From assembly GCA_021234155.1 (NCBI GenBank), contig JAJEKV010000010.1, positions 6,420,871 to 6,484,870 of the forward strand: a stretch of DNA of 64,000 nucleotides. The letters are read 5' to 3'. The DNA is from Isoetes taiwanensis (taxonomy: Eukaryota > Streptophyta > Lycopodiopsida > Isoetales > Isoetaceae). Made by a program: the position numbers and the translations under genes. Shown piece after piece: positions 46,757-53,390 of this stretch. Positions within the stretch are counted from its first letter, which is position 1. Each line of letters opens with the position of its first letter. The notes under the pieces were generated by a model. The model searched no databases. It was given only the letters and a program-made list of their open reading frames with translations, and was not told the DNA's origin.

Positions 46757-47158
46757 CTTCCGGCGGAATCACAACTTTGCTATTCCGCCAGATAGAATCA
46801 CCAATTTACGATTCTTCGAGATGGAATCACCGCTGATGTATTCCACCAGACGGAATCACAACCGTATTATTTATTCCGCGAGACGGAATCACAATCGTGT
46901 TATTCCGCTAGACGGAATCACAACCATGCTATTCCGCCAGATGGAATCACGAATGTCTGATTCCGTGAGATGGAATCACCACTTACGTATCCCGCCAGAC
47001 AGAATCACAACATTGCTATTCCGCCAGATGGAATCACAACCATGCGATTCTGCCCGGTGGAATCACAACCATGCGATTCTGCCCGGTGGAATCACTCCTG
47101 CGTGATTCCACCAGATGGAATCACTCCTCCGTGATTCCACAAGATGGAATCACTCCTC
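46757..47158. repeat. Array of about 14 short hairpin repeats near the left end of the MULE-like element
   Basis: Units about 26-30 bp apart each read like ATTCCGCCAGATGGAATCAC: ATTCC and GGAAT arms around a 5-7 base loop. Two units are identical (ATTCTGCCCGGTGGAATCAC). Arm substitutions are often compensated on the other arm or restricted to the loop. Three further units lie at the other end (48,566-48,650). Such subterminal repeats are typically transposase-binding sites; that role here is inference. Confidence 0.85.
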
Positions 47159-47270
47159 CGTTAAGCGAGCTTTAAGCGAAGCCTATGTTTACTTGAAGAT
47201 CATGAATGAAATTAACACTGAACCAAGCTAGGCTACTTCATTTTGTGTGTGCATGTCCATTATTATGCCC

Positions 47271-47934: not shown

Positions 47935-48841
47935 AGAAGAAGAGAAGGAAGAACGCCACCTCTTTTCGGCCATATCTATACTGCCGGATCTGCACAAGAA
48001 AATAACGAGAACAAGAAAAAAGAAAGATCCCCTGAAACCGGAACAGAACCAAAAGCTACCGGAACAGAACCAAAAGCTTAAAAAACCTGCATAAACCCTG
48101 CTGAAGCCATGCCGGATTTGCAGAACCCGCCCTTTTTGCCGGATTAATGCAGAATATGGGCTATGGCCGAATAGGGGCTATGCCAAAGATGCTGAGCTAT
48201 GCCAAAGATGCTGAAGAATGCCGAAGATGCTGATGCTGCTGCCGAAATGAGCTGCCGAAATGCTGAAGAATGTTGAAGATGCATGGAATAATAGGAGTTC
48301 AGTGCCGTCCTACAGCAGAACAGCGACACAGAAAGAAAGACAACAGAACAAAAAACTTTTCGTTGGCTTAAAAAAACCTGCATAAACCCTGCTGAAACCA
48401 TGCCGGATTTGCGTCAACAAGAACAAGAAAAGAAGAAAGATAGCCATCGCCTGTTCAATCGCCATCGCCGGAGCAAGCGGCCATAGCCGGCACTAGCTGA
48501 AACACTCCCACAACAATAAAGAATAGAACGTAAAAAATTTGAATTTTTACTGGAATATTCTAGATGGTGATTCCGTCACATGGAATAACACATCGGTGAT
48601 TCCGTCCCGCGGTATTTGACAGACGTGATTCCGTCGGAAGGTATAAAATGGACGGCCAAGATGGACCCTACAGACGGATGGCTGGGATCCATCAGAAGGT
48701 ACACCTGACGTTGTCAGGTACGAATAACGGGGCCTCCAGAACGGATCCCGTTCCCGGAGGGTCTGTGATTCCGTGGGAGGGAATATCTTGCGATGGAATC
48801 ACAATAACCGGGGTAAAAATATTTTCACGCGGATGGAGGGG

Positions 48842-48974: not shown

Positions 48975-51900
48975 ATGGACGCAGATGAGCACCTACCTGT
49001 CTTTTCCTCTCTTGAAGATGTCTACCATGATGAATCTCTTCTGGACGAAGCGAGATTTAGATTTGATAATTTGCGCTCCGTTTTCATTCGGCTTTATGGA
49101 AAAGAACCAGAGTTCTATGCTCGAGCACCTGGCGAGTTTTCCTCTGTTTATTATCTTATTTGGACGTTTTTAGAATTGCTCGTAATACTTCCTTCTGCAT
49201 CTTTTTGGTGAATGAGATCCAGAATTCATGCGCTTTTATGCTTAAATGGCTCTGTTAGAGTATTTTTTGAGTGTTTAGAAGAGATACTGAGCTTGCTGTT
49301 AGGTGTTCTCAGGGAGAGTAAACCTGATTGGGGAGCACATAGACTATGAAGGCTATTCAGTTTTGCCAATGGCAATTCGTCAAGATACAATAGTTGCCAT
49401 AGGAAAGCGTGATCATAGTGAGGACAAACCTGTTCTGCGCATAGCAAATGTAAATACCGATGCCTTCAGACCCCACGAGTTTAATGCAGATCCGTATCAG
49501 GTAATTGGAGCTCTCTATGATATGTTTTATTGCATTGTCCATCTACCACTAAACAAGTCATTGACTAATCAAGATTGCTCTTACCTTCAAGATCTCTGTA
49601 AAGATTACCGGTATATTTTAGAATGATTATTTCTTCAAATTTCTTGCAGGAAGTAGATCGTAATAATCATACATGGGCGAATTATGTTCTTTGTGGGTAT
49701 GATGCACATCCCTTTCTGAACATGCGTTATCTCTATTAGTCAACACAAATCCCTTTTTTAACATCACCGGTCTACTTTCTTCACATATTTCCAACGTGTC
49801 TAAGTTCTTCAATTGTTGAACTATTAATGTTAAATTTATTTAATTAAATTGTTGGTCCTCCATTCTCACGCAGTATTTAATGCTAACGTTGGATGTTTCC
49901 TTAGATACAAGGGCGTGTTTGAGCATTTGTTGTTTGTTGATCCTCCATTCCCAAGCAGTATTTAATGTTAACGTTGGATGTTTCCTCAGATACAAGGGCG
50001 TGTTTGAGCATTTGTCATCAAAAGGCCAATCATGTGCTTCGCGGATTGGTCTAGATATTCTTGTTGATGGCACAGTTCCAATGGGTTAGTTCTCTATAAA
50101 ACTGTTGCATCAGTCATAATGGATGTTAAGAAACATCGTGCATATTCAAACTGTTTTGAAGCTGTTCATACATGACAAGCTTCAAAGCTCTAAGTATGGT
50201 TGCACTTGATGGAATTGGCAGAACAGTATAGATACACTTTTGATGCAATTGTCATAAAATACACATGCACTGCATTAAAGCAAGTTCTTATATGTGTAAC
50301 ACTCTTTTTGATATTTTTAAATATGAGTTATGATTTCAGGTGCTGGTTTATCAAGTTCTGCAGCTATTGTCTGTTCTACTGCAATTGCTATTATGGTGGC
50401 GCTTGGTTTAAATTTTTCTAAGGTGCTGCTTTTGTTCCTTTTATGAATGTCAATTTCACAGGGGGGAGGGCTTTCCAGTTCTTCTGCATTGGTGTGTGCA
50501 TCAATTGTTGCTATTTTAGCTCTCTACAGATTTGTCTTCCCTAAGGTACTTGGGTAGGATTTTTCAAGGGTTATGTGATGTATCTTTGTAGGATTGCTTT
50601 CTTTTCACTGTCACTATTGGGTAGTGAAGGTCCAGTTCAATAGAGTTAATATGGTGGTTGTAAACTCCGGGGATGGTTCATGTGACTGTTGCACCAATTC
50701 AGTTTTGTAAGAACACATCTGATTGCGTACTATCTTATCTGGCAGAAAGAAATATCAGAGTTTGCTTGTAAGTGTGAGAGGCATGTTGGGACGCAATCTG
50801 GTGGAATGGATCAGGTACCACAAATTAGGTTTTAAGTACCATGGCTTTTAATATCATCAGATTAGGCCAGTTAACCATGGGCAACTATATGAATGTGCAG
50901 GCAATTTCTATTATGGCAAGACCAGGAGTAGCATTGCTGATTGATTTTAACCCCATCAGGGTCAGGAATGTTTGTCTTCCAAAACGTGGTACATTTGTGA
51001 TAGCAAACAGTTTGACAGAGTCAAATAAAGCTGTCACTGCTGCAACAAATTACAATAACCGTGTTGTTGAATGTAGATTGGCTGCGGTGAGTTTTGATTT
51101 ACTTTCAATGTTGCTTCCAATGGCAATATCTTATGCATTGTAGTCTTTGTCGAAATTGAGATTAATAATTTGGAGATGCCTCTTTGCAGATGATTCTTGG
51201 TGTAAAGCTGGGAATGTCAGTTGAAGCAGTTAGGACAGTGTCAACCCTGTCCGATGTTGAAGGAATGTGTGTTTCATATTCAGCTTCCCATGGGTCTATG
51301 GATCCAATAATTGCTGTAGAGGCAGGCCACATAAACCAGAGTTGCTTTTGATGCAACAACATTCTATAGAGCTGTGGCTCAGTAATCTATATGGGCTTTA
51401 CAGGAATTCTTACACAAGGAGCCATTTACAGTTGAAGAAATTGAAGAATGTCTGAAGGAAAAACTTGATATAGTATTAGGGAAAGTGCCAAGTTTCTTGG
51501 CAGTGCTATCTGTGGCTAAACATTACAAGTTATATCAGGTCAAATAGTCTCTGCATGCATCCAACTCCTCAATTCTGTCAATTAATCTATATTTCGTGAT
51601 TTGTAGAGAGCAAGACACGTATACTCTGAGGCGAAGCGAGTATACCAATTTCAAGAAACTGTTCAGTCTGGTGACAGGTATTTGTCTAACTTGTCAATTT
51701 CGTATCTGTGAAGGTTCAGAGAGCAAGTGCATTTTCTGTTTTCATGTTATACTCAAAAAGTTGTACAATGGTTCCTATGCTGCAGTGACGATGAAGTGCT
51801 GCAGAAATTGGGAAAGCTCATGGATGAAAGTCATACCAGCTGCAAGGATTTATATGAGTGCAGGCATGTTTAATTTAAAGATGGCTATCTAGTAAAATTT

Positions 51901-52256
51901 GTTGTGATTTCTTGGCGGAACTTGTGGTGAAATAGTTGTCCAGAATTAGATGAGCTGGTTCAAGTCTGCCGATCTAGTGGAGCATATGGAGCAAGGCTTA
52001 CTGGGGCTGGATGGGGCGGATGCGTGGTTGCTCTGGTACAGGAGGATGTGGTGCCTGCCTTTATATTGTCTGTAAAGGTGAGCACAAGCTTTTGTTGGGT
52101 ACTTTATCAGAAAAGTAAACATTGGTTTTTGTTTCAACTTTGCAGGAGGGCTTCTATTTATCTCGCATCCACAAAGGTACCATCAAGTCTGACGAATTGG
52201 GGCGTTTCCTTTTTGCCTCAAAACCATCAACTGGGGCATTTATCCTTAAGCTATAA
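48975..52256 (+). CDS. Galactokinase (GHMP kinase), 13 exons, 497 residues
   Basis: It phosphorylates galactose at C1 with ATP in the cytosol, feeding galactose salvage. Exons: 48,975-49,131; 49,313-49,500; 49,650-49,696; 49,990-50,084; 50,340-50,422; 50,746-50,814; 50,901-51,086; 51,190-51,321; 51,404-51,538; 51,607-51,677; 51,786-51,863; 51,936-52,077; 52,146-52,256. All join in frame with no internal stop, giving 497 residues, the usual plant length. Motifs: [12 protein letters not shown] (residues 53-64), the ATP loop GAGLSSSAA (163-171), and TGAGWGGC (436-443). The protein ends [14 protein letters not shown]. Introns 1, 8 and 11 need GC donors (49,132; 51,322; 51,864); the other nine use GT. 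A duplicate of exon 5 lies in intron 5, and an 85-bp duplication covers the exon 4 acceptor. Arabinokinase is unlikely because it carries a large extra N-terminal domain. Confidence 0.93.
49850..50016 (+). repeat. 85-bp tandem duplication over the exon 4 splice acceptor of galactokinase
   Basis: Two copies contain TTGGATGTTTCCT(T/C)AGATAC and the first coding bases (AAGGGCGTGTTTGAGCAT). The first acceptor is at 49,903-49,904 and the second at 49,988-49,989. Only the second leads into the complete exon in frame. Use of the first would read into duplicate sequence. Confidence 0.9.
50462..50545 (+). other. Duplicate of galactokinase exon 5 (possible alternative exon)
   Basis: It reads [20 protein letters not shown] and ends at a GT donor after an AAG Lys codon, exactly like exon 5 ([20 protein letters not shown]). 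Twelve of 27 residues match. With the AG at 50,460-50,461 the exon is 84 nt, one more than exon 5, which breaks the phase from exon 4. The AG at 50,467-50,468 keeps the frame but drops two residues. Inclusion after exon 5 as an extra 28-codon cassette is also in frame. The run of six G at the start makes a one-base length error plausible. Confidence 0.6.
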
Positions 52257-53390
52257 TGAAAAAGCTTTCTCATTTTTTCAAAATTTACTACCAAGATGTG
52301 TACGTTCCATGACCTATATTGCTGCTCTCTAGATGCGTGCATGATGGGCCATATCATGACCGTAAATAAATCTACCTACTCTCTAGATGTTCACATTCTT
52401 GTAGTGTGTTGATTGATAAACAACTTTAACTGCTGAACAGCTTTGACTAAAAAAGAAGGGAAAAGTACGCGAACAAAAGCCGTTGGTGGGTGACGGAAAC
52501 TACATACTCGCAAAGAGTTGGAGGATTGGTTGCCGACGAACTCCAACAAGATAAAGGAGAAACAAGTTGCATGTGTCTCTGTTCAATGTTTGAGTTAAGT
52601 TTCATAGTGTTTCTTTAATGAAGCAATATGTTTGCAACTATAAATCTACATCTGATATAAAAGACATCTCATAACATCTCTTCGTAATTTACGTACCTAT
52701 GCAATGCTCGACTAACAAAATCATACCAAACAAGCTGTTAAGTCATGCATAAATCAAAGCCATAAACAAATAACCTTAGCTATTTTCAAGGGTTATTTTA
52801 ATGCTCGACGAACAAAATTATACCAAACAATGTTAAGTCATGCATAAATCAAAGCCATAAACAAATAACCTTAGCTATTTTCAAGGGTTATTTTAATCAT
52901 TTTTTTTTTTTGCACTTAGGGAGCATGTCCTTCCTTAACTGGCAGGTTCCTGGTGATCTCAGATCCTGGCCGTTGGATTTTGCATGATTATTAACCATAA
53001 TTTCCCTAATAAACATCGTGATAAACAAGCGAGACACTTATTAGCCGTGATAAACAAGTTGTGGCATGCTGTAGCCTGTAGCAAAGTTTTATCTTCAAGA
53101 TTCAATCCCTGCTTCACAAGTTCAACCACCAAATTTAAGCCCCATTTAGATAAATTTTGCAAAATGAAGCTGCATTTTGTGTGCCATGTGAAAACCCTGT
53201 AAGAACGCAACAGGAATGGGCAGCCTCCAATGATAGAAGAAAAATTCTACCTTTACATCTATGGGCACAATTTCTATAATGAATGCATGGAAGGTGATTT
53301 CTATAATATAGGAATGCCTGGAATGTGATAAAGTCATCACTCATTATAATATTGGCTCCGTGTTGTTCAAGAAGGGGTTAAACCACAATG
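52257..53390. other. Intergenic stretch after galactokinase
   Basis: No gene was recognised. It includes the 97-bp tandem duplication annotated separately. A minus-strand stretch at 53,210-52,959 has a 60-codon open part (LVVELVKQGLNLEDKTLLQA) that faintly resembles helical-repeat proteins such as pentatricopeptide repeats, but a stop and the short length leave it unassigned. Confidence 0.35.
52703..52897. repeat. 97-bp tandem duplication
   Basis: Two copies start AATGCTCGAC(T/G)AACAAAAT and end CAAGGGTTATTTTAAT, with period 97 (52,703 and 52,800). They are nearly identical, so the event is recent. Confidence 0.92.

Follow-up and report, generated by a model that had tools for sequence, protein, structure and literature searches.

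The galactokinase gene of the quillwort Isoetes taiwanensis carries two versions of the exon that encodes its ATP-binding loop, as had been proposed from the DNA alone. In the 64,000-nucleotide stretch analysed here (the window), the usual exon, 5a, is followed in the next intron by a second segment, 5b, of similar length, with AG and GT ends and an open frame. These letters give good support to the reading of 5b as an ancient copy of exon 5 that arose in tandem, was long constrained and is apparently laid out as an exclusive alternative to 5a. The best explanation overall, which we hold to be evenly balanced against all others together, would be that the two form a mutually exclusive pair in which 5b is spliced in place of 5a. 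Likewise, we put the chance that 5b is a working alternative exon in this species at about one in two, the remainder being divided mainly between an exon that lately became a relic and a non-productive one.

The galactokinase gene and its two loop exons

Features of the galactokinase gene around exons 5a and 5b (positions within the window).
Feature	Start	End	Strand	Description
Galactokinase gene	48,975	52,256	+	13 exons, 497 residues (5a form), spliced frame open
Exon 4	49,990	50,084	+	ends in phase 1 (one base into the codon), donor GTTAGT
Exon 5a	50,340	50,422	+	83 nt, GHMP motif 2 loop, donor GTGCTG
5a-5b gap	50,423	50,461	+	39 bases, in-frame TGA when retained
Six-G run	50,461	50,466	+	first G is part of the acceptor AG, the other five open 5b
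Exon 5b	50,462	50,545	+	84 nt as assembled, GHMP loop, AG acceptor, donor GTACTT
Exon 6	50,746	50,814	+	starts in phase 0, accepts 5a or 5b after Lys

In the assembly, the ordinary (5a) form of the gene is intact, given its open spliced frame and its matches to family models, domains and structures. The whole protein of this form scores 313.3 bits with the NCBIfam model TIGR00131 gal_kin (curated cut-off 226.65) and contains the Pfam domains PF10509 (80.7 bits), PF00288 (64.8 bits) and PF08544 (58.1 bits). It bears the galactose-binding signature together with the GHMP N and C domains, the combination by which a galactokinase is recognized. In the PDB, its top match is N-acetylgalactosamine kinase 2a2c, which we take to be human GALK2 (380 bits, residues 30-495 aligned), ahead of galactokinase 2aj4, presumably yeast Gal1 (257 bits). 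Six short galactokinase peptides compared with bacterial and archaeal contigs returned one distant bacterial relative.

Some irregularities were seen elsewhere in the gene. Three of the 12 introns of the 5a form, at 49,132, 51,322 and 51,864, start with GC instead of GT, and the first of these starts is GT in two of the genomic copies described below (L011 and L012). GC-AG introns are put at about 1.2% in plants (PMC6310983). A tandem duplicate at 49,849-50,015 lies in intron 3 and the beginning of exon 4, and comparison across copies shows its units to be about 90-95% alike; an additional acceptor and the 25 bases that open exon 4 are included in it, and hence a decoy exon start.

Taken alone, 5b matches PF00288 (GHMP_kinases_N) at 22.7 bits, above the cut-off of 22.3 (E = 1.1e-4 in a one-protein scan), and fits this model better than 5a alone (19.7 bits). 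When PF00288 was scanned over the whole genome (1,658,258,908 bases in 1,110 contigs), neither exon was significant by itself (E = 0.50 for 5b and 0.78 for 5a), as would be expected for a segment of this length. In PDB searches with single exons as queries, 5a gave three weak matches (best E = 0.02) and 5b gave none at E = 10. A GHMP loop pattern, modelled on the family motif and with a trailing Cys added after inspection of both exons, was found at two sites only in the six frames of the window, namely 5a and 5b; the control rate was 0.017 per 64 kb (60 Markov controls). When the Cys was dropped, the pattern still hit just these two exons, with a control rate of 0.067 per 64 kb.

The two exons share 12 of 27 residues, the same count as in the original prediction, and 43 of 81 bases. 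Six of the 12 common residues are encoded by different, synonymous codons, and the divergence between the pair amounts to a pS of 0.76, which is saturated, and a pN of 0.37. When 5a was allowed to drift neutrally down to the observed base identity in 20,000 simulated runs, 47% of the runs retained an open frame, so that the open frame by itself says little. Runs that kept both an open frame and 12 shared residues made up 0.3%, and those that kept an open frame and the motif 0.005% (1 of 20,000). The simulation used substitutions only, without indels and with a simple transition bias, and is thus generous to drift. Apart from one extra G, the 28 codons of 5b contain neither a stop nor any other lesion.

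Hence, on the grounds of Pfam match, divergence and motif control, 5a and 5b are adjacent homologous exons, one of the features by which mutually exclusive exons are recognized, and the earlier interpretation holds in part: 5b is an old duplicate of the exon in which motif, frame and splice signals have survived. Because motif, frame and splice ends were kept while synonymous sites became saturated, we conclude that, through most of its history after the split from 5a, 5b was a constrained coding exon.

Layout of the pair and the run of six Gs

Both exons finish in phase 0 after a Lys codon and can be followed by exon 6. The 39-base gap that separates them is shorter than any of the gene's 12 introns (68-323 bases) and is probably too short to be removed as one. 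In spliced translations, retention of the gap introduces the TGA, and skipping of exon 5 shifts the frame. The layout therefore favours the choice of one exon, the gap being both shorter than any intron of the gene and interrupted by a stop. Such an arrangement would suit two exons that exclude each other sterically, and the short gap thus offers a ground for exclusivity that was absent from the original account. Still, were the gap spliced, 5a and 5b together would remain in frame as assembled. Removal of such an intron could occur, since human introns of around 30 bp, or even shorter, are among the reports cited in the paper that gives a figure of 56 bp. The predicted RNA fold of 50,085-50,745 was unremarkable (z = -0.82, with 6 of 20 shuffles as good).

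The mechanism that we propose follows from this arrangement. The spliceosome would join one of the two, 5a or 5b, to exon 4 before continuing to exon 6, steric hindrance imposing the mutual exclusion; 5b would once have been spliced in place of 5a, and probably still is. In the resulting protein, the phosphate-binding residues Gly-Leu-Ser-Ser-Ser would be kept and the helix behind them altered. The GHMP loop binds the phosphates of ATP. Of the two consequences first suggested for a loop swap, a change in kinetics is thus possible and a change in substrate doubtful: with the phosphate-binding residues kept, the helix changed and the loop touching ATP, an effect of 5b on ATP kinetics is the likelier.

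The junction on the 5' side is less regular. The two exons join exon 6 in the same phase, while on the side of exon 4 they differ by one base as assembled: 5a fits the phase of exon 4, and 5b is one base longer. The phase problem noted earlier at the six Gs is borne out by the assembly, in which splicing of exon 4 to 50,462 runs one base out of phase and meets a stop at the end of 5b. An acceptor 7 bp downstream, at 50,469, does restore the frame as foreseen, at the cost of two residues before the LSSS stretch; it is preceded by a run of Gs, without a pyrimidine tract. We infer that an in-phase 5b would measure 83 nt like 5a, and that the sixth G of the window copy would be either a single-base error of the assembly or a lesion that this copy acquired recently.

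Homopolymers tend to be called too short in nanopore data. None of the seven aligned genomic copies, which are rich in errors, has six Gs at this place; L010 and L012 come closest with five. These seven cannot settle the G count, owing to errors at a neighbouring CAG, to the homopolymer bias of the caller and to the shared descent of several copies.

Genomic copies and base-calling noise

A DNA search placed at least nine further matches to the gene among its best candidates. Eight of the nine reach into 5b and the ninth ends within 5a, which makes 5b older than the gene copies. With the 5b protein as query, seven places were found in the genome, including the window, and the matched part is free of stops in all of them. 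Nine pieces (L009 to L017), representing eight copies, were compared with the window. In L017, the match to the gene does not begin until 50,488, within 5b. L009, L015 and L016 share a deletion of about 49,886-50,384, by which exon 4 and the front of 5a are gone; as they are spread over two contigs, this truncated copy seems to have been multiplied.

Differences between the copies and the window are concentrated at CAG and CTG. CAG/CTG neighbourhoods account for 22 to 27% of the sequence, yet in seven noisy segments (L009, L010 and L012-L016, compared with 48,989-52,600 of the window) 329 of the 549 difference events are found there, as against 7 of 32 events in L011 and L017. L012, the longest segment, differs from the window at 37 of 57 CAG and 38 of 62 CTG sites, compared with 5 of 82 CAA and 5 of 75 AAG. 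No such excess is seen in L017 (2 of 25 and 2 of 16) or L011 (0 of 8 and 0 of 13). The changes also have a direction: among 336 altered CAG/CTG sites in six noisy segments, a CG arises at 173 and disappears at 8, whereas 217 substitutions away from CAG/CTG (eight segments) comprise 16 gains and 32 losses.

These differences are probably due to a nanopore caller writing CG at methylated C, in places where short reads cannot be placed. An artefact of the base caller is favoured because CG is gained, whereas deamination of methylated C removes it. The Isoetes taiwanensis assembly is described as built from nanopore reads (v9.4.1 flow cell, Guppy 3.1) with miniasm and polished with racon and pilon (PMC8566536), and low-quality nanopore genomes have been ascribed to modification types outside the training of the caller (PMC10687267). 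A literature search over titles and the starts of abstracts found, among the papers listed, no report of such miscalls at plant CHG sites. Sparing of CCWGG, considered as a check in case the caller had been trained on E. coli, had no power: six of seven sites were altered, and sparing was not shown. Copies with CAG/CTG miscalls could be misjudged as pseudogenes. The copies also suggest that, where duplicated genes seem damaged in this nanopore-based assembly, the damage is not to be taken at face value.

Away from CAG/CTG, exons and introns diverge alike in eight of the nine segments pooled (95 of 4,141 exon sites and 129 of 5,803 intron sites). L015, the noisiest segment, at 14 of 318 exon and 45 of 326 intron sites, was left out of the pool on account of its densely clustered, noise-like differences and the deletion that it has in common with L009 and L016, two segments only about 2 to 4% diverged. 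L016, which was kept, leans the opposite way (20 of 462 in exons, 10 of 500 in introns). Given this likeness of exons and introns, the copies look unconstrained, with no sign of present constraint on 5b. As a test of selection on 5b they were rejected: CAG/CTG noise dominates, and the remainder lacks an exon/intron contrast. The copies neither confirm nor refute the use of 5b.

Alternative explanations and known systems

The extra G may be a real frameshift, 5b having lately lost its use in this copy so that only 5a is spliced, a reading that we consider rather unlikely although it has several points in its favour. The frame shift is present in the assembled window copy, where polishing seems to have been good, since each of the 13 exons in the 5a form is in frame, and the clean segments L011 and L017 mostly match the window at CAG/CTG (0 of 21 and 4 of 41 sites altered). 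Moreover, 5b ends in RFVFPK where 5a has LNFSK, an end unlike those of the chains matched in the PDB search with 5a. A decaying exon is harder to reconcile with 28 codons devoid of stops and other lesions, with a Pfam fit better than that of 5a, and with the shorter G runs of all seven aligned copies. The same frame shift could instead have a function. If the choice of 5b led to a premature stop and mRNA decay, the alternation between 5a and 5b would set the enzyme level and no second enzyme would be made. The stop falls right at the end of 5b after splicing to 50,462, and 5a gives the full length, as such a poison exon requires; yet it would have no need of a conserved GHMP motif in another frame, and the presence of the motif in 5b leaves this explanation improbable.

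Two in-frame uses of the assembled letters, namely entry through the acceptor at 50,469 or addition of 5b after 5a as an extra 28-residue cassette, are both very unlikely. Gs rather than pyrimidines precede that acceptor and two residues are lost before the loop, while the cassette would demand removal of the 39-base intron and place two loops in one fold. A chance resemblance within the intron is scarcely conceivable, given the Pfam match above the cut-off, the motif control and the neutral simulation; nothing was found in its favour. The mutually exclusive pair, with 5b taking the place of 5a, would accommodate the kept motif, frame and splice ends, with the sixth G as an error or a recent lesion.

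Mutually exclusive exons derived from tandem exon duplication are well known in animals. The candidate pair of the quillwort resembles them in that 5a and 5b are adjacent, homologous and nearly equal in length, separated by a gap that probably cannot be spliced, and in that double skipping breaks the frame. It differs in the one additional base of 5b as assembled. In plants, mutually exclusive exons appear to be uncommon. Choice among alternative splice sites is described as more prevalent than such exons in angiosperms, and cases of mutually exclusive exons have been reported in spruce MADS-box genes (PMC6243048). The spruce cases described there include alternative first or last exons, whereas 5b sits in the catalytic loop of a metabolic enzyme. 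A search of open-licence literature by title found no report of a galactokinase 5a/5b pair among the matches listed, which does not prove that none exists.

At the protein level, the ten loop letters of 2a2c are identical to those of 5b, while those of 5a differ. After the tenth loop residue, 5b departs from both 2a2c and 5a. Yeast Gal3 is a galactokinase relative that acts as a sensor. It varies in the same loop, two residues being missing there in the alignment with Protein GAL3 chains; it is, however, a separate gene rather than an alternative exon, and a sensor role is not indicated for the quillwort gene. Tentatively, a lycophyte galactokinase might yield two enzymes by exchange of its ATP-loop exon, through a splicing switch in the catalytic site of a primary-metabolic enzyme, possibly an active kinase and a weak or sensor-like form. 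If this were true, the switch would be comparable to that of animal pyruvate kinase M1/M2, and the rewriting of a sugar-kinase phosphate-binding loop by exon choice would offer a clean, testable case from a vascular-plant lineage that branched early. If 5b is no more than a relic, it would still record a long-lived exon duplicate in a plant enzyme.

Upstream of the gene, at 47,000-47,180 and 48,560-48,800, clustered short repeat units around GGAATCAC and GTGATTCC were observed by eye.
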